Source: Allostella sp. ATCC 35155 (GTDB lineage Bacteria > Pseudomonadota > Alphaproteobacteria > ATCC43930 > Allostellaceae). From it: a DNA stretch of 64,000 nt. Position 1 is the stretch's first letter, and each line of letters opens with the position of its first letter. Location: the NCBI GenBank assembly GCA_006738865.1, contig AP019701.1, positions 1,112,001-1,176,000 of the forward strand, in the 5' to 3' direction. Shown piece by piece: positions 1 through 12,750 of this stretch. Under the pieces are notes generated by a model. It did no database searches, had not been told where the DNA came from, and worked only from the letters and a program-made list of their open reading frames with translations. The position numbers were made by a program, and so were the translations under genes.

Positions 1-1295
1 TCGCCCGGTTCCGCCCGGCGCGCCTGCGCGCGACCGCCGTTCCGGCGGCGATCCTGCTCGCGGTCGCCGTCTGGTCCTGGGCGGCTGCGCTCGTCCTGCT
101 GTTCGCAGCGCCCCTCATCCCGATCTTCATGGCGCTGATCGGCTGGCGCGCCGAGGCCGCGAGCCGCGCCCAGCTCGCCGGCATGGCCGGCATGAACGCC
201 TTCCTCCTCGACCGGCTGCGTGGGCTCGCGACCATTCGCGCGCTGGGTGCCGTCGACCGCACGACCGAGCGCCTGCGGCACGCGGCGGAGGATTTCCGCC
301 GCCGCTCGATGGCCGTGCTGCGCATCGCATTTCTCTCGTCCGCCGTGCTCGAGCTCTTCGCCGCGCTCGGCGTCGCCATGGTCGCGGTCTATGTCGGATT
401 CCACCTGCTGGGCCAGCTCGGATTCGGCACCTGGGGCGGCCGGCTGACCCTGGCCGAAGGCCTCTTCGTGCTGCTGCTCGCCCCGGCCTTCTTCGAGCCG
501 CTGCGCGATCTCGCCGCGGCCTGGCACGACCGTGCGGCCGGCGAGGCCGCGATCGCCGCCCTCGACCGGCTGGCCGAGACCGGCAAAGGGCTGCCGGGCG
601 GGCCGGAAGCGGAGTCGATCGCGCCGCGTCTGCCGGCGCCCGCGGTCGCGATCGAGGGGCTGCGCTTCCGGCACGGACCGGACTCGCCGTGGGTGTTCGA
701 CGGTTTCGCGCTGCATGTCGCCCCGGGCGAGCGCGTGGCGCTGCTGGCGCCGAGCGGCTGCGGCAAGTCGACCCTGCTCGCGCTGCTGGCCGGCCTGGTA
801 GAGCCCGAGGCGGGCACGATCCGGATCGGGGGCGAGCGTCTGTCGGCCGGCAGCGCGGCCCGGCTGCGCCGGGGCATGGCGTGGATCGGCCAGCGCCCGC
901 ACATCTTCGCCGGCACCCTCGCCGACAATGTCGCGCTCGGCCGGCCCGGCCTCGATCGCGCAACGGTCGACGTGGCCCTGCACGCAGCCGGTCTCGCCGA
1001 GGTGGCCGCCGGCCGTGGCACGGCGCCGATCGGCGAGGGCGGATCGGGCCTTTCGGGCGGCGAGGCCTCGCGCCTCGCGCTCGCCCGCGTCGCCGCCGCG
1101 CCGGAGGCGGGGCTGATCCTCGCCGACGAGCCGACCGCCCATCTCGACGGGCCGACGGCGCGCGACATCGCCGCCGCCCTGCTGATGATCGCCCGCGGCC
1201 GCACCCTGGTCGTCGCGACCCACGATCCGGTGCTTGCGGCCCGCATGGACCGGATCGTGCGGCTGGCGCCCACGGCCGAGCGGGTGGCGGCATGA
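1..1295 (+). CDS. cydD: Thiol reductant ABC exporter subunit CydD (5' partial)
   Basis: The reading frame is open from base 3, so the start lies left of the window; about 430 residues are visible. The visible part has the last membrane helices of an exporter-type permease, then a fused nucleotide-binding domain with Walker A (LAPSGCGKST), signature (LSGGEASRLALAR) and Walker B (LILADEPTAHLD). With CydC it forms the inner-membrane heterodimer that exports cysteine or glutathione and is needed for assembly of cytochrome bd. The stop overlaps the cydC start (ATGA), and cydABX follows, which fixes the assignment to CydD rather than a generic exporter. Confidence 0.9.
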   Translation, partial: ARFRPARLRATAVPAAILLAVAVWSWAAALVLLFAAPLIPIFMALIGWRAEAASRAQLAGMAGMNAFLLDRLRGLATIRALGAVDRTTERLRHAAEDFRRRSMAVLRIAFLSSAVLELFAALGVAMVAVYVGFHLLGQLGFGTWGGRLTLAEGLFVLLLAPAFFEPLRDLAAAWHDRAAGEAAIAALDRLAETGKGLPGGPEAESIAPRLPAPAVAIEGLRFRHGPDSPWVFDGFALHVAPGERVALLAPSGCGKSTLLALLAGLVEPEAGTIRIGGERLSAGSAARLRRGMAWIGQRPHIFAGTLADNVALGRPGLDRATVDVALHAAGLAEVAAGRGTAPIGEGGSGLSGGEASRLALARVAAAPEAGLILADEPTAHLDGPTARDIAAALLMIARGRTLVVATHDPVLAARMDRIVRLAPTAERVAA

Positions 1296-2989
1296 GCCGG
1301 CGCACGAACAGCCTCCGCGGCGCGGCCGGGTTGCTGTCGGCCGCCGACTGTCGCCGGCTCTTCGGCGGCGTCGTGCTGGCGGCGCTGACGGCGCTGGCCG
1401 GGCTTGCGCTGCTCGGCCTCTCGGGCTGGTTCATCGCCGCGACGGCCATCGCCGGGCTGACGGCAGCCACGGCCATTGCGTTCGACGTCTTCGCGCCGGC
1501 GGCCGGCATCCGTCTGCTGGCGTTGACCCGGACGGCCGGGCGCTATGGCGAGCGTCTCGCGACGCACGACGCGACCCTCGCATTGCTGGCCGGGCTCCGG
1601 GCGCGCCTGTTCCGCGGCTGGGCCGGCGCCGGCGCGGCCCGCGATCTGGCGCGGCGGCCGGCGCGCCTTCTCTTCCGCCTGACGCTCGACGTCGATGCCC
1701 TCGATTCGCTCTATCTGCGGGTGCTGGTGCCCCTGGGCGCTGCGCTCGCTGCGGCCCTTGCCGCAGGTGTCGCCTTCGGCGTCTTGCAGCCGATGCTGGG
1801 CCTCGCCGTCGGGGCTTTCCTCGCGGTGGTCGGCCTCGGCATTCCGATGGTTGCGGCCCGGGCGGCGGCGCGCGGGGCGGCGGTCCGCGCGCGTGGGCTG
1901 GAGCGGCTGCGGGCCGGCACGGTCGACCTCGTCAGCGGCCAGACCGAATGGCTGATGGCCGGGCGTCTCGCGGCGCGGCTGGCGGGCATCGGCGACGACG
2001 ACCGCGCGCTCGCCGCGACCGACGACAGGCTGAACCGGATCGAGAGCCGCACCGGCCTCGCCTTCGGGGCCGCCGGCGCGGCGCTCCTGGCCGCGGTCCT
2101 GCTGGCGATGGCCGCCCTTGCGGAGGCGGGGACGATCGGTGCCGCGGTCGCCGCCCTCGGCGTGCTGCTGGCGACGGCGGTGCTGGAGCCGTTCGGGGCG
2201 CTGCGTCGGGGGGCGACGGAACTCGGCCGGACGCTCTTCGCGCTGCGCCGGATCGCCGGCCGGCTGGCGCCGGCGGCCGCGCACGGTCCCGCTGCGATCT
2301 CCCCGCCGGGCGCCGGAACGGCCGTCCGCCTGGAGCGGGCGACGGTTCGCCACGCCGCGGCGTCGGCACCCTCGCTGCACGCTGCCGACCTCGTCGTTCG
2401 CGACGGCGAACGGGTTGCCCTGATCGGACCGAGCGGTGCCGGCAAGTCGACGCTGCTGTCCCTGATTGCCGGAGAGGTCTCGGCGGACCATGGCCGCGTG
2501 ACCGCTCGGCCGGTCACGCTGCTGACGCAGCGCACGGAACTGTTCCAGGATTCGATCCGCGACAACCTCCGCCTCGCCGATCCCGGCGCCGACGATCGCC
2601 GCCTGATGCTGGCGTTCGATGCCGCGGGGCTGCGGGCCGATGTCGAGGCCATGCCGCGTGGCCTCGATACGCGCCTCGGCGAGGGCGGGCAGGGCCTGTC
2701 GGGCGGCCAGTCCCGCCGCCTCGCGCTCGCTCGCCTCTTCCTGCACGACCGGCCGGTCTGGCTGCTCGACGAACCGACCGACGGCCTCGACGGCGCGACC
2801 GCGCGCGACGTCCTGGCTCGCCTCGCCGCCCGGGCCGATGGGCGGGCGGTCGTCGTCGCGACCCATCTGCGGCGGGAAGCCGAAGCGGCCGACCGCCTGG
2901 TCCGGCTCGACCGCGGACGCATCCTCGCCGTCCTCGAACGTGGACAGCCCGGCTTCGCCGCCGCGCTGGCCGAATTGCGGCCCGACTGA
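1292..2989 (+). CDS. cydC: Thiol reductant ABC exporter subunit CydC
   Basis: This 565-residue half-exporter has six predicted helices in the first 300 residues, then an ATPase domain with Walker A (GPSGAGKST), signature (LSGGQSRRLALAR) and Walker B (WLLDEPTDGLD). It partners CydD in exporting reduced thiols to the periplasm, which supports haem insertion into cytochrome bd. The start is the ATG inside the ATGA overlap with cydD; an upstream extension of the open frame would lie inside cydD and is not credible. Length is normal for CydC. An 80-base gap separates it from cydA. Confidence 0.92.
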   Translation: MSRRTNSLRGAAGLLSAADCRRLFGGVVLAALTALAGLALLGLSGWFIAATAIAGLTAATAIAFDVFAPAAGIRLLALTRTAGRYGERLATHDATLALLAGLRARLFRGWAGAGAARDLARRPARLLFRLTLDVDALDSLYLRVLVPLGAALAAALAAGVAFGVLQPMLGLAVGAFLAVVGLGIPMVAARAAARGAAVRARGLERLRAGTVDLVSGQTEWLMAGRLAARLAGIGDDDRALAATDDRLNRIESRTGLAFGAAGAALLAAVLLAMAALAEAGTIGAAVAALGVLLATAVLEPFGALRRGATELGRTLFALRRIAGRLAPAAAHGPAAISPPGAGTAVRLERATVRHAAASAPSLHAADLVVRDGERVALIGPSGAGKSTLLSLIAGEVSADHGRVTARPVTLLTQRTELFQDSIRDNLRLADPGADDRRLMLAFDAAGLRADVEAMPRGLDTRLGEGGQGLSGGQSRRLALARLFLHDRPVWLLDEPTDGLDGATARDVLARLAARADGRAVVVATHLRREAEAADRLVRLDRGRILAVLERGQPGFAAALAELRPD

Positions 2990-3069
2990 CCGCTAGTTTG
3001 CGCAATCGCGCGCCGCCGGTCGGGGCGGCGCCACACTGACGGGAGCCGGTTTCGACCGGACGCAGTGCC

Positions 3070-4644
3070 ATGGAACTCGATGTCGTGGATCTCTCGCGCC
3101 TGCAGTTCGCGATCACGGCGCTCTACCACTTCCTATTCGTGCCGCTGACGCTCGGCCTCTCGGTCCTGCTGGCGATCATGGAGACGGTCTATGTCATGAC
3201 CGGCCGGCCGATCTGGCGCCAGATGACGAAATTCTGGGGCACGCTCTTCGGCATCAACTTCGTGCTGGGCGTCGCCACCGGCATCGTCATGGAGTTCCAG
3301 TTCGGCATGAACTGGAGCTACTACAGCCATTATGTCGGCGACATCTTCGGCGCGCCGCTGGCGATCGAGGGCCTGATGGCCTTTTTCCTCGAGGCGACCT
3401 TCGTCGGCCTGTTCTTCTTCGGCTGGGACAAGCTCTCGAAGGTCGGCCACCTCATGGCGACCTGGGCGGTGGCGCTCGGCTCCAACTTCTCGGCCCTGTG
3501 GATCCTGATCGCCAACGGCTGGATGCAGAATCCGGTCGGATCGGTCTTCAATCCCGAGACCATGCGGATGGAGATCACCGACTTCTTCGCCGTCCTCTTC
3601 AACCCGGTCGCCCAGGCGAAGTTCGTCCACACGGTCTCGGCCGGCTACGTCACCGCCTCGGTCTTCGTCCTCGGCGTCTCGGCCTGGTACGTCCTGAAGG
3701 GCCGGCATATCGACCTGGCGAAGCGATCGATGACGGTCGCAGCTTCCTTCGGGCTGGCGGCCTCCCTGTCGGTGGTCGTGCTCGGCGACGAGAGCGGCTA
3801 CCTCTCGACCGAGCACCAGAAGATGAAGCTGGCCGCGATCGAGGGCATGTGGGAGACCGAGCCCGCGCCGGCTGCCTTCACCGTCTTCGGCCTGCCCGAC
3901 CAGGCGGCGCGCGAGACCCACTATGCGGTCCGCATTCCCTGGGTCATGGGGCTGATCGGCACCCGCTCGCTGACGACCGAGATCCCCGGCATCACGGAAC
4001 TGGTCGAGCATGCCGAGGGGCGCATCCGCAACGGCATCCTTGCCTTCGACGCCTTGCAGAAGATCCGCGCCGCCGGGGCCTCCGGCGCGCCGGCCGAGGT
4101 CCGGCAGGCGTTCGAGGAGCATGGCGGCGACCTCGGCTACGCCCTGCTGCTGAAGCGCCATGTCGACGATCCGCGGCAGGCGACCGACGAACAGATCGCG
4201 CGCGCCGCCTGGGACACGGTGCCGAACGTGCCGTCGCTCTTCTGGTCGTTCCGCATCATGGTCGGCCTCGGCTTCTTCTTCATCCTGCTGACGGCGACCT
4301 TCTTCTATCTCTCGGCGCGGCGGCGGCTCGACCGCTATCCGCTGCTGCTGCGCGTCGCCGTCCTCGCGATCCCGCTGCCCTGGCTCGCGGCCGAACTCGG
4401 CTGGATCGTGGCGGAATTCGGCCGCCAGCCCTGGATCATCGAGGGCGTGCTGCCGACGGCGGCCGCGGTCTCCAACCTCGGCGCCACGACGGTCCTGCTG
4501 ACGATCATCGGCTTCGTGATCGTCTACACGGCGCTGTTCATCGTCGAGATGGCCCTGATGCTGCGGGCGATCCGCAAGGGCCCCGAACCGGATGACGAGC
4601 CCGAGGCCGAACTCGTTCCGCCCGCGCTCGTCGCCGCACAGTGA
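3070..4644 (+). CDS. cydA: Cytochrome bd ubiquinol oxidase subunit I
   Basis: This 524-residue integral membrane protein is close to E. coli CydA over its whole length, including the long Q-loop. Visible family features are the His in ALYHF (residue 20, haem ligand), the conserved acidic stretch [13 protein letters not shown], the His of KFVHTV (second haem ligand), the Met of FRIMVG (haem b558 ligand) and the GRQPW motif before the last helices. It oxidises quinol and reduces oxygen to water without pumping protons, at high oxygen affinity. It overlaps cydB by GTGA. Confidence 0.97.
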
Positions 4645-5810
4645 GACTGGCCATGATCCTGCATCAACTCGTCGATTACGAGACCCTGCGCGTCGTCTGG
4701 TGGCTGCTGCTGGGCGTGCTTCTCATCGCCTTCGCCGTCATGGACGGCTTCGACCTCGGCACCGCGACCCTGCTGCCGCTGGTCGCCGACACCGACCTGG
4801 AACGGCGCGTGGTCATCAACTCGGTCGGTCCGGTCTGGGAGGGCAATCAGGTCTGGCTGATCCTCGGCGGCGGCGCCATCTTCGCCGCCTGGCCGCCGCT
4901 CTATGCGGTGTCCTTCTCGGGCTTCTATCTCGCGATGTTCGCGATCCTGCTCGCCCTCATCCTGCGTCCGGTCGCCTTCAAGTACCGCTCCAAGCGCGAG
5001 GGGCGGCGGTGGCGGGCGACCTGGGACTGGGCGCTCTTCGTCGGCGGGGTCGTTCCGTCGCTGATCTTCGGCGTCGCCGTCGGCAATGTGCTGCAGGGCG
5101 TGCCTTTCCGCTTCGACGGGGATCTGCGGGTGTTCTACGAGGGCACGACGCTGTTCGAGCTGCTGAACCCGTTCGCGCTGCTCTGCGGCATCCTGTCGGT
5201 GACCATGCTGACGATGCACGGCGCGGCATGGCTGGTCCTCAAGACGGACGGTACCGTCGCCGCACGCGCCCGGCGCTGGGGCATGCTCGCGGCGGCCGCG
5301 ACGATCGTCCTCTTCGCCCTGGGCGGCCTCTGGCTCTGGCTGGGTGTCGACGGCTACCGGTTCACCAGCATCGTCAACACCGTCGGGCCGTCCAATCCGC
5401 TCGGCAAGACCGCGGAGCGGGCGGCAGGGGCCTGGTTCACCAACTATGGCAGCCATCCCTGGATGATGGCGGCGCCGGCCCTCGGCTTCGTCGGCGCGCT
5501 CGGCGCCCTGGCGCTGATGCGGGCCGGCCGGGAGGGTGCGACCTGGCTCGCCAGCGCCGTTGCCATCGTCGGGATCATCGCCACGGTCGGCTTGGCGATG
5601 TTTCCTTTCATCCTGCCGTCCTCGATCGATCCCAAGTCCAGCCTGACGGTGTGGGATGCCTCGTCGAGCCATCTCACCCTGTTCATCATGCTCGTCGTGA
5701 CGGTCGTCTTCGTGCCGCTCATCGTCGCCTACACGGCCTGGGTCTACCGCGTCCTCTGGGGCAAGGTGGACGCCAAGGCGATCGGCGACGGCAGCGGCCA
5801 CGCCTACTGA
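4641..5810 (+). CDS. cydB: Cytochrome bd ubiquinol oxidase subunit II
   Basis: The product has 389 residues and about nine membrane segments. The N-terminus has the CydB block [17 protein letters not shown] followed by MDGFDLG and the [10 protein letters not shown] motif, all diagnostic. CydB pairs with CydA and stabilises the three-haem core. The GTG at the GTGA overlap with cydA is used here; an in-frame ATG at 4653 would remove only four residues and cannot be excluded. CydX follows after 25 bases. Confidence 0.96.
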
Positions 5811-5835
5811 CCGCAAGAAGGGAAGGAGAAACGCG

Positions 5836-5955
5836 ATGTGGTATTTCGCCTGGTTGCTCGGCCTGCCGCTGGCTGCGGCCTTCGCCGTGCTCAACGCCAT
5901 GTGGTACGAGCTGATGGACGACGCGGCCAAGCAGGCACCGCGCGGGCGGCGGTGA
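5836..5955 (+). CDS. cydX: Cytochrome bd small subunit CydX (YbgT)
   Basis: This 39-residue single-helix protein starts MWYFAWLLG, the hallmark of CydX/YbgT, and continues with one hydrophobic helix and a basic tail. In E. coli the homologue binds CydA and stabilises the haems. A strong ribosome site (GGAAGGAG) lies 7 bases before the ATG. The stop codon overlaps the GTG start of the next gene (GTGA), so the oxidase operon seems to run directly into the thiol-synthesis-like genes. Confidence 0.93.
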   Translation: MWYFAWLLGLPLAAAFAVLNAMWYELMDDAAKQAPRGRR

Positions 5956-7109
5956 CCGCAAGCGCCGGCAGTCCTTCTGAAGTCGACCCCGCTGCCGCGC
6001 GCATCCTGATCCTTTGCCATGGCGGCGGCGGGGGCAGCACGCGGGCGGCCATGAACCTGGCGGCCGCCCACGCGGCGCGCGGCCGCGACGTCGCGCTGGC
6101 GACTCTGGGCCGCCCGCGCTGGCGCCCCGCGACACGATTGATCGTGCTCGACCGGCCGGCGACGATGCCCGCGCGCCTCGACCGGAGATGGGATGCGGCG
6201 GCGGTGGAAGCCGTCGCCCGGCAGCTCGTCGAGACGTGCCGGCGGGAGCGGCCGGACCTGCTGCATTTTCACTATGTCCGGCCCTTCGCCGCCGCAGCCG
6301 CGCGCCTGGGCGAACTGCTGGGGCCGGGCGCACCCGTGGCGGTCGGCACCATCCACGGCACCGACCTCACCGAGGTGACGCCCGAATGCCTGCGCAGCGT
6401 GCTCGCGGGCACCGCCCACCTCACGGCCGTCTCCACGGCCTATGCGCGGCTCGCGGAGGAGGTCCTGGGCCGGCGGCCGGCGGTGGTCGCGAACTTCGCC
6501 CGGCCCGGTCCGCCGACGGTGCCGGCCCGCCATGGGCGTGGGCAGCTGCCGATCATCGCGCATGTGTCGAGCTTCCGCCCGGTCAAGGCGGCGGATGCGG
6601 CGGCTCGGGCCTTCCTCAGCGTCCGCCGGCAGGCGCGCTGCCGCCTCTGGCTGATCGGGGACGGCCCGGATGCACCGGCCCTGCGCCGTGCCCTGCGCCC
6701 GGGCCGCGCCGATATCGCCTGGCTCGGCTTCCGGCACGATGTTGCCGCACTCCTGCAGCGGGCCACCCTGCTGCTGGTGACGAGCCGCGCGGAGAGCTTC
6801 GGGCTGGCGGCGCTGGAGGCGATGGCGGGCGGCGTTCCGGTGGTGGCGCCGCGCATCGGTGGCCTGCCGGAGGTCGTGGGTGACGGGGTGGGCGGCGACG
6901 GGGCGGGCGGCCTGCTGTTCCATCCCGGCCGGTCGGCGGACGCCGCCGCCAAGGTGTTGACACTGCTGCGGCGCGAACCGCTGCGGCGTGCCCTCGCGCG
7001 CGGCGCCCGCCGGCGCGCCCGCCTCTTCGGCGAGGACGCCGCGATTGCCGGCTACGACTGCGTCTATCGCCAGGCCCTGGCGGCTCGTCCGGTGCCGGTC
7101 GGTCCATGA
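5952..7109 (+). CDS. bshA: BshA-like family 4 glycosyltransferase
   Basis: This 385-residue GT-B enzyme has a basic/Gly-rich N-terminal loop (CHGGGGGSTRAAMNL), then LLHFHYVRP, TIHGTDLTEVTP, HVSSFRPVKA, LIGDGPDAPAL and the sugar-nucleotide block ESFGLAALEAMAGGVPVVAP. This order and wording is that of BshA, which joins GlcNAc to L-malate in bacillithiol synthesis; substrates here are inferred. The start is GTG at 5952, overlapping cydX; an upstream GTG would lie inside cydX. The next gene overlaps by ATGA. The BshC-like and BshB1-like neighbours support BshA over a generic GT4. Confidence 0.7.
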   Translation: MTASAGSPSEVDPAAARILILCHGGGGGSTRAAMNLAAAHAARGRDVALATLGRPRWRPATRLIVLDRPATMPARLDRRWDAAAVEAVARQLVETCRRERPDLLHFHYVRPFAAAAARLGELLGPGAPVAVGTIHGTDLTEVTPECLRSVLAGTAHLTAVSTAYARLAEEVLGRRPAVVANFARPGPPTVPARHGRGQLPIIAHVSSFRPVKAADAAARAFLSVRRQARCRLWLIGDGPDAPALRRALRPGRADIAWLGFRHDVAALLQRATLLLVTSRAESFGLAALEAMAGGVPVVAPRIGGLPEVVGDGVGGDGAGGLLFHPGRSADAAAKVLTLLRREPLRRALARGARRRARLFGEDAAIAGYDCVYRQALAARPVPVGP

Positions 7110-8209
7110 AGGGGCTGCGGGATTTGCTGGGTTGCCCGGAAGGACGGGCGCAGCTCGCCCGGGCGGGGCTGTTCGACGAGGCGGACCCCTTCCTGGCCGC
7201 GCTGCCGCAGGACCGCCCGGCGCGCATCTATGTGCATCAGCAGCCCGCGGCCGATCCGCGGCGGTCCGTCATGGCCAAGCTCGATGCGCTGGCGGACCTC
7301 TGGCGGCGCCGGCCGGAGCGGGTCGAGCCCGCCTTCCTGCGCATCGACACGGATCGGGCGGCCTCGAGCCGGACGGCGGTGCGGATCGCCTGGGACGGGG
7401 TGGCGGGCCGCCGCCACCTCAAGCTGACGCCGCCCGGCAGCGACCGGGTCGAATCGCGCCACCTGTGGCTCGATCCGGTCGCCCTGGCCGAGGTCGCGCG
7501 CCGGCTCGAAGCCTACATCCGGCAGGAACCGGTCGAGGCGCGGGAAGCCCTGGTGCGGCTGGAGCGCATCCGGCCGCTGCTGGCGCCGACGGAGCCGCTG
7601 TCGCACGCCCGCCATGCCGCGCAGCTGGGCGACTTCCTGATGGCCGAGCGCTACGGGACGCCGTTGCCCGCGATCTTCGTCTCGGGCCTTGCCGGCGATG
7701 GCACGCTGGCGCCTGTCCTGGCGCGGCTGCTGGCGGGCCGCGAGCGGTTCATCCTCGCCTTCAACCAGGCGGTCCGCGCCCAGCAGGCAGCCGGCATCGA
7801 GACCGCCGTGGCGGCTCTGCCCGCGGACTATCTGCCGCTCTTCCTCTCCTGTCCCGTCGACGGCGAGCGGCTTCGATTGCGCTGTGAGTCGGACGGACGG
7901 CGGGAACTGGCCGTCTGCACCAGCGCGGCCGGGCGCCGCTATGCCTTTCCGCTCGATGACGGGCGCGGCCTGCCGGACGAACTCCTCGCCACCGGCCGCT
8001 GGAGCCCCGACGTCACCCTGCCGATCCTCCTCGCCGGCCGCTTCGACGGGGTCGTCGCCGGCCGCAGTTCGGCTCTCTACCTCATGGTCTTCGCGGCGGC
8101 CATGCGGGACTCCCTGGCCCTGGAGCCGGTCCCGGTCCTGGTGCCCGGCGGACTGGCCGACCTGCCGACGGGGCCGGACGGGCTGCTCCAGCGCTGGCTG
8201 ATGGGGTAG
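7106..8209 (+). CDS. bshC: Short BshC-like protein (putative cysteine-adding enzyme)
   Basis: The 367-residue product is soluble. Near residue 40 it has IYVHQQPAADP followed by SVMAKLDAL and EPAFLRIDTD; this matches the layout of the BshC nucleotide fold (GQQ..GP, K..., PxFW..EDHD). The C-terminal part has LPLFL, a GERLRLR strand, then DELLATGRWSPDVTLPILL and VVAGRSSALYL, which parallels the BshC SPNV..RPL..PT and GP.E.AYW segment. Known BshC proteins are about 540 residues and end in a coiled coil; here that part is missing. BshC adds cysteine to glucosaminyl-malate. The position between BshA-like and BshB1-like genes is the main support; sequence identity looks low. Confidence 0.5.
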   Translation: MKGLRDLLGCPEGRAQLARAGLFDEADPFLAALPQDRPARIYVHQQPAADPRRSVMAKLDALADLWRRRPERVEPAFLRIDTDRAASSRTAVRIAWDGVAGRRHLKLTPPGSDRVESRHLWLDPVALAEVARRLEAYIRQEPVEAREALVRLERIRPLLAPTEPLSHARHAAQLGDFLMAERYGTPLPAIFVSGLAGDGTLAPVLARLLAGRERFILAFNQAVRAQQAAGIETAVAALPADYLPLFLSCPVDGERLRLRCESDGRRELAVCTSAAGRRYAFPLDDGRGLPDELLATGRWSPDVTLPILLAGRFDGVVAGRSSALYLMVFAAAMRDSLALEPVPVLVPGGLADLPTGPDGLLQRWLMG

Positions 8210-8221
8210 CGTGCAGGGACC

Positions 8222-8953
8222 ATGACCCCGGTTGCGATCCTCGCCTTCTCCACCCATCCCGACGATGTCGAACTCGCCTGCGGCGGCACGCTCATCCTCG
8301 CCGCCCGGGCCGGCCTCGGCGTCGGCATCGCGGATCTTACGGCCGGGGAGGCGGCGACCCGCGGCACGCCCGAACTCCGGCGGATGGAGGCGGAGGAGGC
8401 GGGCCGGCGGCTCGGCGTCGCCTGGCGCACCTGCCTCGGCCTGCCGGACGGGCGGGTCGGCGAGACCCCGGACCAGGCGGACGCGATTGTCCGCATCATC
8501 CGCGCGGCGCGGCCGCGGATCCTGCTGCTGCCCTATCCCCGGGACCGCCATCCCGATCATGCCGCGGCCGCCCGGCTGATCGAGCGGGCAGCCTTCCTCG
8601 CCCGCCTGCGCGGCCAGCCGGGCGAGGCGCCGCACGCGGTCGGCCGGCTGCTGCATTATTGCGGGCACCATCCGTTCGCGCCGTCGGTCGTGGTCGATGT
8701 CAGCGCCGTATGGGCCGAACGCATGGACGCGCTGGCCGCCCATGCCAGCCAGTTCGGAGCCGAGGGCGGGGCGCCGACGGCCCTCAGCGGCGGCGACTTC
8801 CTGCGCTATGTCGAGGCGCGCGCGGTGTGCCATGGCGCCATGATCGGGGCCGCCCATGGCGAGGGCTTCGCGATGGCGGGGCCGGTCGGGCTGTCGGGCC
8901 TCGACGCGCTGCTGCCGCCCGCGGCGCCGGCCGGCTACCGCAACTTCCTCTGA
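8222..8953 (+). CDS. bshB1: BshB1-like PIG-L/LmbE-family zinc deacetylase
   Basis: This 243-residue protein has the metal motif THPDDVE (His12, Asp14, Asp15) and RHPDH (His110, His113). The block DLTAGE..TRGTPELR..EA followed by LGLPDG is characteristic of BshB1, the enzyme that deacetylates GlcNAc-malate, rather than of other LmbE proteins. It lies 12 bases after the BshC-like gene and would act on the product of the BshA-like enzyme. Its stop faces the ATP-grasp gene with 9 bases between. Confidence 0.78.
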   Translation: MTPVAILAFSTHPDDVELACGGTLILAARAGLGVGIADLTAGEAATRGTPELRRMEAEEAGRRLGVAWRTCLGLPDGRVGETPDQADAIVRIIRAARPRILLLPYPRDRHPDHAAAARLIERAAFLARLRGQPGEAPHAVGRLLHYCGHHPFAPSVVVDVSAVWAERMDALAAHASQFGAEGGAPTALSGGDFLRYVEARAVCHGAMIGAAHGEGFAMAGPVGLSGLDALLPPAAPAGYRNFL

Positions 8954-8962
8954 CGGCACCGC

Positions 8963-10063
8963 TCATGGCCGCCAGAGGCGGCGGACCAGGATGTCCATCT
9001 TCGGCACGTCGTACTGGCAGAGCATCTCGATCGCCGGCGGCACCGGCAGGCCCGCCTGCGTCAGATGAAGCCGGGCCATGGCGCCGTAGCAGAGATGGAC
9101 GGCGAGGTCGCGAAATCGCAGCTCCGGATCGGGCTTGCCGAAGCGGATGAAGGGATAGGGGTTCGCCTCCCACACCACCGTCCCGCCGTCGGGGTGGCGG
9201 CCATAGTCGAAGGCGGCGATGTCGAGCCCCAGGGCCGCCTGGGCACGGCGGAATTCGCCGGCACCGTCGGGCGACTCAGCGATGAAGGCGGCTTCCTCCT
9301 CGAGGAGGTCGGCGGTCGTCACCTTGTTGCCGCCGCGCACCTCCCATTCGCGCGCGGCGATGAGGTGGCCGGCGATGGCGCGGTCACCCAGCATCAGGCA
9401 GCGTCGCTTGCGGATCAGGCCGTCGGGACCGCGTGTGTCGACGAACTCGACGGCGATCGGCCGGCGATAGGCGGCGAGCATCGACGGGTCGATGGCCCGG
9501 TCCGGCGGCACCAGCAGGGAGGGGCGGCGATGCCCGCCATCCTCGCGGATCAGGATCGGGCCGGGCAGTGCGGCGCGCACCGACGCAGCCGACTGAGCGT
9601 CGACCGGCAGCATGCGCGGCGTCCGGATGCCGGCCGCGGCGAGGCGCCGGGCGGTGGCGAGGCGGCTGGTGCGGGCCAGCAGCGACGGATGATTGACGGT
9701 CGGAATGCCGCGCGCCGCGCAACGCTCGACGAGCGCGACGGCGCGCGCCAGCCCGCCCGGCGACCAGTCCGCGACCGGATCCTGCAGCCAGGTCACGACC
9801 AAGCGGACGCCGTCGAGGTCGATCGCCGGGCAGGGCAGCAGCGCGAGGCGGAAGCGGCGCCGGATCGAGGCGAAGTTGCGCTCCAGCCATGTCAGGTATT
9901 CGTCGTGAAACCCGGCCTGGCATATCGGGTGGCGCACCGCCAGGATCGTTCCTTCCGCCGTCGCCCAGGCGGCGTTGCGCTCCCGATCGGCGCGGGCGAT
10001 CCGGCGATAGCGGGCGAGCGGCGGGCCGAGGCCGGCGTGGCGGGGCGATCGGGGTCGGCTCAT
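8963..10063 (-). CDS. ATP-grasp domain protein of unknown substrate
   Basis: This 366-residue protein has a pre-ATP-grasp N-terminal half, a segment RTSRLATARRLAAAGIRTPR typical of ATP-grasp ligases, and a C-terminal half with GLDIAAFDYGRHPDGG and EANPYP, the usual Mg/ATP-binding strand. Such enzymes join a carboxylate to an amine or thiol via acyl phosphate. No family name could be assigned. It converges on the bshB1-like gene and is divergent from the antiporter gene, so its link to thiol synthesis is positional only. Confidence 0.6.
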   Translation of the reverse strand: MSRPRSPRHAGLGPPLARYRRIARADRERNAAWATAEGTILAVRHPICQAGFHDEYLTWLERNFASIRRRFRLALLPCPAIDLDGVRLVVTWLQDPVADWSPGGLARAVALVERCAARGIPTVNHPSLLARTSRLATARRLAAAGIRTPRMLPVDAQSAASVRAALPGPILIREDGGHRRPSLLVPPDRAIDPSMLAAYRRPIAVEFVDTRGPDGLIRKRRCLMLGDRAIAGHLIAAREWEVRGGNKVTTADLLEEEAAFIAESPDGAGEFRRAQAALGLDIAAFDYGRHPDGGTVVWEANPYPFIRFGKPDPELRFRDLAVHLCYGAMARLHLTQAGLPVPPAIEMLCQYDVPKMDILVRRLWRP

Positions 10064-10172
10064 GCGCCGCAGCCTCTACGGTCACGCTCGATCGGGCAAT
10101 GGCCCCACCGTTGCGAGCCGTCCGCGCCGGGATCGGTTAGATTGCGGTCATACGGATCGAGGAGAGGGCAGC

Positions 10173-12020
10173 TTGGCGGTCGAAGGACAGGGTAGCGATC
10201 TCGTCCAGGTGGTGGCGCTGCTGGGCGCGGCGGTCGTGGCGGTGCCGATATTCCGGCGGCTCCGGCTCGGCTCGGTGCTGGGCTATCTCACGGCCGGGCT
10301 GGCGATCGGGCCGTTCGGCCTCCGCCTCTTCGCGGACGCGCAGGCGATCCTGCATGTCGCCGAACTCGGCGTGGTGATGTTCCTGTTCGTGATCGGGTTG
10401 GAGATGCAGCCCTCGCGCCTGTGGAACCTCAGGCGCGCCATCTTCGGCCTCGGCATCGCCCAGGTCGGGGTCTGCGGCGCGCTGCTGACCGGGCTCGGGA
10501 TCCTGGCGGGATGGCCGCCGGCCGTCGCCTTCGTCGCTGCGATGGGCTTCGTGCTGACCTCGACCGCGATCGTCATGCAGCTGCTGGACGAACGCGGCGA
10601 CGCCGCCACCCCCGCCGGGCAGAAGATCGTCTCGGTCCTGCTGCTGGAGGATCTGGCGATCGTGCCGCTGCTCGCCGCCGTCGCCTTCCTCGCGCCGCAG
10701 CCTTCGGCGGGCGGCTGGACGGAGCGCCTGACGGCGATCGGCCTGGCGGTCGCTGCGATCGTCGGCCTGCTGGTGGCCGGGCGATGGCTGCTCAACCCGA
10801 TGTTCCGGCTGCTCGCGGCGGCGCGCGCGAGAGAGATCATGACCGCGGCCGCGCTGCTGGTGGTGCTCGGCTCGGCCCTGCTCATGCAGCTGGGCGGGCT
10901 GTCGATGGCGATGGGGGCGTTCCTGGCCGGCGTGCTGCTGTCCGAATCGAGCTTCCGGCACCAGCTCGAGGCCGACATCGAGCCGTTCCGCGGCATCCTG
11001 CTCGGGCTCTTCTTCCTGGCCGTCGGCATGTCGCTCGACTTCCGGGTGATCGCGGAGGCGTGGCCCACCATCCTGGCCGCCGTCGGCGGCTACATGGCGG
11101 TCAAGACGTTCGGCATCTACGTCGTCGCCCGCGCACTCCGGACGGACCATCGCGAGGCCATGGAGCGGGCGGTGCTGATGGCGCAGGGGGGCGAATTCGC
11201 CTTCGTCCTCTATTCCGCCGCGGCGGCCGTCGGGCTCTTCGACGCACGGATCAACGCCGTGCTGACGGCGACCGTGATCGTCTCGATGGCGCTGACGCCG
11301 CTGCTGACCATCCTGCTGGCGCGGCTGATGCCGCCGCGGGCCCCGGACATGACGGACGTCGATGCGCCCGACGAGCTCGATGGCCACGTCCTGATGATCG
11401 GCTTCGGCCGCTTCGGCCAGGTGGCCAGCCAGGGACTGCTGGCACGCGGCTTCGACGTCTCGATCCTGGAGAACGACGCCGAGATGATCCGCAGCGCGGC
11501 CGATTTCGGCTTCAAGGTCTATTACGGCGACGGCACTCGCCTCGACATCCTGAAGACCTCCGGCGCGGGGCGGGTCAGGGCGGTGCTGATCTGCATCGAC
11601 GATGCGGCGGCCGCCAACCGGATCGTCGAGCTGATGCGGTCGGAATTCCCGCTGACCGCGCTCTTCGTCCGCGCCTTCGACCGCGAGCACGCCCTGCACC
11701 TGATCGCCGAAGGCGTCGACTACCACATCCGCGAGACCTTCGAGTCGGCGATGACGTTCGGCGAGGCGGCGCTGGTCCATCTCGGCGTGCCCGAGGAGGA
11801 GGCGGCCGAGATCACGCTCGATGTGCGCCGGCGCGACCAGGAGCGGCTGGAACTGCAGGCGACGGGCGGCATCTATGCCGGCACCGACCTGATGCGGGGC
11901 AACGCTCCCAAGCCCGGCCCGTTGACGCGGCCCAAGCGCCGCGGCCAGGTCATCAGCGGGGAGACGGCAGCGCCCATCGACGCCGAAAGCCTGCCGGACG
12001 GTTCGACGGCCGGTACATAA
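10173..12020 (+). CDS. KefB/KefC-type CPA2 cation:proton antiporter with TrkA-N domain
   Basis: The product has 615 residues. Residues 1-390 form 12-13 membrane helices of the CPA2 family. Residues about 400-520 are a Rossmann TrkA-N (RCK) domain beginning [15 protein letters not shown]. In E. coli KefB/KefC this architecture gives K+ efflux gated by glutathione (closed) and glutathione adducts (open), protecting against electrophiles. Start is TTG at 10173, chosen because GGAGAG lies 6 bases upstream and the membrane domain begins directly after. Its presence next to thiol genes suggests a shared role in electrophile stress, which is inference. Confidence 0.85.
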
Positions 12021-12150
12021 TCGCTGCAATCGTTCCGTCACTCACCACCGAGGGGAAACAATCCGTTTCGCCTCGGGCGGCTGGTGCATGGGGGAGCCTC
12101 GGCCTCATATCGCCGTTCACAGAATGACGGCATCGAAGGAGGCTACCCCC

Positions 12151-12750
12151 GTGACCAAGGTTCTCGTCCTCTACTATTCCAGCTACGGCCATATCGAGAC
12201 GATGGCGGAAGCCGTCGCCGAGGGCGCGCGCGAAGCCGGCGCCACCGTCGACATCAGGCGCGTGCCGGAACTGGTGCCGGAGGAGGTCGCGCGGAAAAGC
12301 GGCTTCAAGCTCGACCAGAAGGCGCCGGTCGCGACGGTCGACGAGCTGGCGAACTACGACGCCGTCATTGTCGGCACCGGTACCCGCTTCGGCCGGATGA
12401 CCTCGCAGATGGCGAATTTCTGGGACCAGACCGGCGGGCTGTGGGCCAAGGGCGCCCTCGTCGGCAAGGTCGGCGCCGCCTTCGCCTCGACGGCGACCCA
12501 GCATGGCGGGCAGGAGACGACCTTGTTCTCCATCATCACCAACCTGCTGCACCACGGCATGGTTGTGGCCGGCCTGCCCTATTCGTTCCAGGGCCAGATG
12601 CGGGTCGACGAGGTCGTCGGCGGCTCGCCCTACGGGCCGACCACCATTGCGGCGGGCGACGGCTCGCGCCAGCCGAGTGCCACCGAACTCGACGGCGCCC
12701 GCTTCCTCGGGCGCCATGTGGCGGGCATCGCCGGCAAGCTCGCGAAATAG
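12151..12750 (+). CDS. wrbA: NAD(P)H:quinone oxidoreductase WrbA
   Basis: This 199-residue flavodoxin-like protein starts [18 protein letters not shown] (FMN phosphate loop), and has [23 protein letters not shown] and [10 protein letters not shown], all WrbA signatures. WrbA is a tetrameric FMN enzyme that reduces quinones by two electrons and avoids semiquinone formation. GTG at 12151 is chosen because AAGGAGG ends 8 bases before it; upstream ATGs at 12088 and 12124 add residues absent from the family. Confidence 0.95.

Follow-up and report, generated by a model that had tools for sequence, protein, structure and literature searches.

A four-gene cassette of the star-shaped alphaproteobacterium Stella sp. 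ATCC 35155 (AP019701; PMC6687932), located in a 64,000-nucleotide stretch of its genome (the window), on balance appears to encode a bacillithiol-type pathway, in which a protein without known family (protein X) would join an amino acid, most likely cysteine, and an ATP-grasp enzyme would add a second group. The cassette comprises: i) a BshA-like glycosyltransferase of family GT4 (glycosyltransferase family 4) with a GTG start (385 amino acids (aa); 5952-7109, + strand), for which TIGR03999 is the best family; ii) X (367 aa; 7106-8209, + strand), which sits in the position of BshC, has 5 orthologues and is a predicted amino-acid ligase; iii) a BshB1-type deacetylase (243 aa; 8222-8953, + strand); and iv) an ATP-grasp ligase (366 aa; 8963-10063, - strand), recognized through weak rimK/LysX matches and synteny. 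The original prediction, an earlier reading of this DNA, had proposed a complete bacillithiol-type gene set of three genes in an alphaproteobacterium; it missed the fourth member. Its account of the host and of the layout was confirmed: three consecutive + strand genes lie at 5952-8953, the bshA-like gene and X overlap by 4 bases (7106-7109), and a 12-base gap (8210-8221) separates X from bshB1. Moreover, the blocks it had quoted are all present, HGTDLTEV, SSFRPVKA and ESFGLAALEAMAGGVP in the translation of the 5952-7109 gene and DLTAGE..TRGTPELR in that of the 8222-8953 gene. As a bacillithiol-type gene set, the deacetylase and a BshA-type glycosyltransferase held up, while the identification of the middle gene as BshC did not; nor can the set be called complete, with the glycosyltransferase below the BshA cut-off in all six genomes and X negative in every BshC family test and short of the C-terminal quarter.

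Gene content, co-occurrence and operon structure of the cassette were observed directly. ORFs (open reading frames) of at least 100 aa from positions 1-22,000 of the window were compared (E 1e-15) with six fetched loci having flanks of 1.9-10 kb; L007 and L016 are one stretch of one genome, so that the loci represent five genomes besides the window. The trio recurred with its order kept in all five, X lying between bshA and bshB in 6/6 loci, and the genes common to all loci were bshA-like, X, bshB1 and ATP-grasp: within these flanks no other of these ORFs was shared by the compared loci, save antisense ORFs of the four genes. The ATP-grasp gene is convergent with the trio in the window and in three other genomes of the genus, and thus on the opposite strand in 4/6 loci. 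The remaining two, G581 (from another family) and its congener G650, have the four genes in a single orientation: G581 shows a 4-base overlap between X and bshB, with 2 bases separating bshB from the ATP-grasp gene, while in G650 each junction is a 4-base overlap. Furthermore, a BshB1 match above cut-off agreed with the presence of X in all 13 genomes compared (both in five, neither in eight). Within G581's order X was found in two of 10 genomes (G581 and G650), and the other eight were without a BshB1 match too, which points to a block gained or lost as a whole. Because these genes alone are shared among the loci, stand on one strand in G581 and G650, and show co-occurrence of BshB1 with X, the four were taken as one functional unit.

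The identification of the deacetylase as BshB1 was supported. The window's protein scored 241.5 bits against a cut-off of 182.5 for TIGR04001, the NCBIfam BshB1 equivalog (E 8.9e-72), and its five orthologues scored 236.7-256.4 bits, so that 6/6 exceeded the cut-off. The motifs HPDD (12-15) and HPDH (110-113) are invariant in all six, including H12, D15 and H113, which we take to be metal ligands, and the best matches in a PDB search were BshB-type structures. Among 190 sampled genomes of the class, a sample leaving out the two cassette carriers from another family (G581 and G650), only the window's own genome passed the cut-off, and 45 matched the model at E <= 1e-3 below it.

For the glycosyltransferase, BshA (TIGR03999) was the best family in 6/6 orthologues; the window's protein scored 170.8 bits (E 4e-50) against a cut-off of 273.7, which none of the six passed (top score 270.2). 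Searched against the PDB, the family profile found BshA structures (2jjm/3mbo) at ~9e-78 and MshA at 2e-25, and the product of 5952-7109 was therefore taken, from these comparisons, as a BshA-type enzyme. Its Tyr108 and Thr133 align with residues of Bacillus anthracis BshA that are presumably malate contacts. The family-profile search of the trio, which the original prediction had suggested as a check, thus came out in part: BshB1 over its cut-off, BshA the best family yet below its own, and no match for BshC.

Glycan loci often contain members of the GT4 and PIG-L families, which, together with the 45/190 class genomes matching the BshB1 model below cut-off, would suit a locus for glycan or lipid decoration with no link to thiols. 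However, for both enzymes the bacillithiol equivalogs beat every other family listed and BshA/BshB-type structures match best, and no further gene is conserved with the cassette; we consider such a locus highly improbable. The PIG-L genes found in G046, G397, G361 and G198 are not accompanied by the other cassette genes in the DNA fetched (for G397 a contig of 3.9 kb).

Protein X had no Pfam or NCBIfam family, and searches of PDB sequences likewise gave matches at chance level, in both cases with the single protein and with the family. Orthologues were found in three genomes of the same genus (G001; G002, a metagenome-assembled genome; and G003, Stella vacuolata) and, outside it, in G581 and G650. 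By sample, X was accepted in four of 61 relatives (5 matches), two of 337 class genomes (4 matches), the two of 10 from G581's order, one of 398 phylum genomes, and two of 385 class genomes at E 1e-8; the samples overlap and are not to be summed, and the window's own genome is counted where drawn. None was found in plasmid records. The segments HQQ, IDTDRAAS, GRWSPDV and VAG[RK]SSALY are invariant across the six. Several other, weak matches were rejected: that in G005 (24 bits) lies in-frame within a 404-aa ORF read as a ferredoxin-NADP-reductase-like flavoprotein; that in the viral contig L008 (32% over 69 residues) lies among other ORFs read as phage genes; and those in G605 and G645 are partial, L013 being without an ORF match and L014 giving 16 bits within an 863-aa ORF.

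Besides the glutathione genes treated below, a series of results on X weighs against the bacillithiol-type reading. i) PF10079 (BshC) gave no match anywhere in the window's genome, with the threshold as loose as E 10, and none among the 6/6 X orthologues at that threshold; it also found nothing in 299 phylum genomes, and the same search did find it in Bacillus, Thermus and Deinobacterium controls. ii) In collinear alignments X ends at BshC residue 411-445, the C-terminal quarter being absent. iii) Under default settings hhalign gave X and BshC a short collinear match with a probability of 2.8%. iv) With Bacillus velezensis BshC as the hhalign master, X scored 22.9 and a BshA decoy 22.8, shuffles reached 25.9 in one set and 26.6 in another, of whose 800 shuffles 7 scored at least 22.9. 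v) In unfiltered HMMER searches, the BshC profile placed five X at ranks 2, 22, 24, 26 and 31 among 313 decoys and left the sixth unreported, and the X profile placed three BshCs at ranks 38, 58 and 128; thus neither direction lifts X or BshC above background. vi) Several residues invariant in three BshCs appear replaced in X. vii) Both AlphaFold2 models of X are weak, with a pLDDT (predicted local distance difference test) of 45.9 for model 1 (three sequences) and 59.5 for model 2 (S. vacuolata protein first); the match of model 1 to BshC has a TM (template modelling) score of only 0.23, and BshC is not among the top 50 hits listed for model 2. Thus the claim that the middle gene is BshC was not upheld: it has no PF10079 or NCBIfam match and is too short, at 367 aa against 530-554 aa in the three BshCs compared. 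The coiled-coil domain of BshC is C-terminal. X is too short to carry this domain, which the available part of PMC4360819 describes as alpha-helical.

Other comparisons relate X to BshC. At a low threshold, hhalign aligned residues 1-367 of X collinearly with BshC ~39-416, landmark segments falling in the same order; our reading of it finds a QQ pair and a lysine retained close to the N-terminus, an aspartate, a proline, a glycine and a tyrosine kept as well, and a [VI]AG...Y segment conserved towards the end. With Deinococcus BshC as master, X scored 27.3, three real decoy families 14.8-21.0, and 0/800 column shuffles reached X. These weak collinear alignments, X's place in the operon and the rank of BshC among the Foldseek matches of model 1 would also fit a plain bacillithiol pathway, in which X is a fast-evolving BshC whose C-terminal portion was lost and the role of the ATP-grasp enzyme is confined to modifying or using the product; set against the negative BshC family tests, this seems rather unlikely to us. 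On homology between X and BshC the evidence is mixed, and no claim is made, because the BshA decoy equals X with one master and HMMER gives no separation.

Structure comparison, the second check suggested earlier, was likewise divided. For model 1, Foldseek ranked BshC (4wbd) first of 350,542 PDB chains (E 0.10) and a class-I lysyl-tRNA synthetase fourth; for model 2, which puts BshC outside its top 50, it found the class-I lysyl-tRNA synthetase 1irx (E 5.6e-4, probability 1.00, TM 0.42, root-mean-square deviation 11.9). MshC, the enzyme responsible for this step when mycothiol is made, is a paralogue of class-I synthetases according to the available part of PMC2922099. For this reason the predicted folds of both models may be said to point the same way, without proving descent. 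As an analogue of BshC, or a very remote relative, X remains a good candidate.

The ATP-grasp protein scored 17.7 bits, below the rimK_fam cut-off of 143.4; five of six orthologues matched TIGR00768 at E <= 0.1 (best 3.4e-6), and D286 and the ExN motif (E299/N301) are invariant in 6/6. A full-length orthologue was present in 0/189 other sampled class genomes (own protein 1e-182, next 3e-27), and 20/190 class genomes matched the enzyme at E <= 1e-3. Outside the window, the same genome has two further, distant relatives of this enzyme, at G000:C1:3903619-3904074 (7e-16) and G000:C1:2145474-2146103 (2e-13). ATP-grasp enzymes are common amide ligases. One could therefore assign to this enzyme, and not to X, the ligation of the glucosamine amine with cysteine or a different amino acid, leaving X some other task, for instance a further ligation or the delivery of substrate: the ATP-grasp protein has invariant acidic and ExN residues, its gene recurs in all cassette loci and is otherwise without a full-length orthologue among the sampled class genomes, and X has no proven family. 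However, X stands between bshA and bshB in every locus, its better model resembles a class-I lysyl-tRNA synthetase, the superfamily of MshC, and in four of the six loci the ATP-grasp gene runs opposite to the trio; we regard this assignment as unlikely.

In the favoured four-gene pathway, the BshA-like enzyme would link GlcNAc (N-acetylglucosamine) from UDP-GlcNAc (uridine diphosphate N-acetylglucosamine) to malate or a similar hydroxy acid, as its family suggests, and the BshB1-like enzyme would remove the acetyl group and free the glucosamine amine, a step well supported by family. Beyond the deacetylation we infer every substrate. X would couple the freed amine with an activated amino acid, cysteine being the likeliest, as BshC and MshC do; its operon place and predicted fold suggest a class-I aminoacyl-tRNA-synthetase-like ligase, which may be a very diverged BshC or a replacement for it. 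The ATP-grasp enzyme would then attach another group, acyl or amino acid, to what X has made, much as MshD completes mycothiol and NmbA completes N-methyl-bacillithiol.

Glutathione synthetase was found in all nine genomes searched and GCS2 in eight, the miss being the metagenome-assembled genome G002. Since the window's genome has both glutathione synthesis genes, a bacillithiol-type thiol would be an addition; the product may act beside glutathione and not instead of it. The same genes, together with the absence of a BshC match for X and the lysyl-tRNA synthetase as the nearest fold of model 2, could point to a non-thiol product, with X adding an amino acid other than cysteine to the glucosaminyl acid to give an osmolyte, a metallophore or a signal. 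However, fold similarity does not specify the amino acid, and the characterised BshA/BshB and MshA/MshB pathways proceed to cysteine, as described in the available part of PMC4360819; a non-thiol product is, in our estimate, improbable. The probabilities of these alternatives overlap with each other and with that of the four-gene bacillithiol-type pathway.

Upstream of the cassette, cydD (cut by the window start), cydC, cydA, cydB and cydX (129-5955) lead straight into it, placing CydDC of the "thiol reductant exporter" type and cytochrome bd genes directly before the bshA-like gene. The stop of cydX (39 aa; 5836-5955, + strand; TIGR02106, 65.6 bits against a cut-off of 31.6) overlaps the GTG start at 5952 by 4 bases. 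Adjoining the ATP-grasp gene at 10062-12750 are a KefC-type potassium:proton antiporter, which passes the CPA2 cut-off and scores 575 bits against 752 for the KefC equivalog, and a WrbA-type NAD(P)H:quinone oxidoreductase, which passes its family cut-off; these two would suit a theme of thiols and electrophiles. Within the 1.9-10 kb flanks of the other loci, the cyd, KefC and WrbA ORFs had no match, and cydX is below the 100-aa limit used there; nothing is therefore concluded from the neighbours. In G581, as read from the ORFs, a glutathione-S-transferase-like gene (L012 10027-10632) lies directly behind the operon on the other strand, followed by genes of ferredoxin-like and cytochrome P450-like type. 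No Rfam families or tRNAs were found in the window, PHROGs and PADLOC searches gave no match, and the 5500-10300 region showed no promoter pattern, its single terminator-like site being at chance level. Synonymous sites look saturated, so that the pN/pS analysis (nonsynonymous to synonymous polymorphism) was uninformative.

Like the bacillithiol pathway, the Stella cassette has a glycosyltransferase of BshA type and a deacetylase of BshB1 type, their genes here in one operon, but it differs in having no recognisable BshC, an ATP-grasp gene as fourth member and glutathione genes in the genome. The N-methyl-bacillithiol pathway (bshA-C and nmbA), as presented in the available parts of PMC6282198 and PMC12719100, likewise has a fourth gene modifying a bacillithiol-type core; Stella's fourth gene, however, encodes an ATP-grasp ligase and not an S-adenosylmethionine-dependent methyltransferase, and adjoins the other cassette genes. 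With mycothiol synthesis (MshA-D) the common logic is glycosyltransferase, deacetylase, class-I synthetase-like cysteine ligase and final acylation, yet the cassette scores far under the cut-offs (MshA 61.9 against 462.5 bits, MshB 32.3 against 224.35 bits), and NCBIfam MshC and MshD matched none of the four proteins. Finally, class-I synthetase-like ligases in operons that possibly encode an ATP-grasp ligase appear in the available part of PMC2922099 (Aravind et al. 2010), but the core of those systems is a paralogue of methionyl-tRNA synthetase, accompanied by a cupin and a lysine monooxygenase, while X is unrecognisable by sequence.

Proteobacteria were among the predicted bacillithiol makers of a 2018 survey, according to the available part of PMC6282198, which does not specify which of them; bacillithiol genes in the phylum are thus not new as such. 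In the open-licence PubMed Central literature nothing was found that treats BshC, bacillithiol and Alphaproteobacteria together, and as far as this literature shows a form with four genes, X and the ATP-grasp gene among them, appears to be new. The Stella cassette would go uncounted in surveys that, like those in the available parts of PMC6282198 and PMC12719100, ask for a recognisable bshC of comparable length. By 2015 activity of BshC in vitro had never been shown, and the enzyme, with its open active site, might depend on a partner, as stated in the available part of PMC4360819; a compact cassette, in which the ligase is shorter and an ATP-grasp gene is linked to it, could make the cysteine-joining step testable anew. 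It is a tentative possibility, and one we put below the four-gene pathway itself, that a new thiol of glucosaminyl-malate type is made alongside glutathione in Stella and a small number of other alphaproteobacteria, with a hitherto unrecognised amino-acid ligase family replacing BshC and the ATP-grasp enzyme adding a residue to give an undescribed peptide or acyl derivative of bacillithiol. If true, this would place a bacillithiol-type thiol in glutathione-using alphaproteobacteria.

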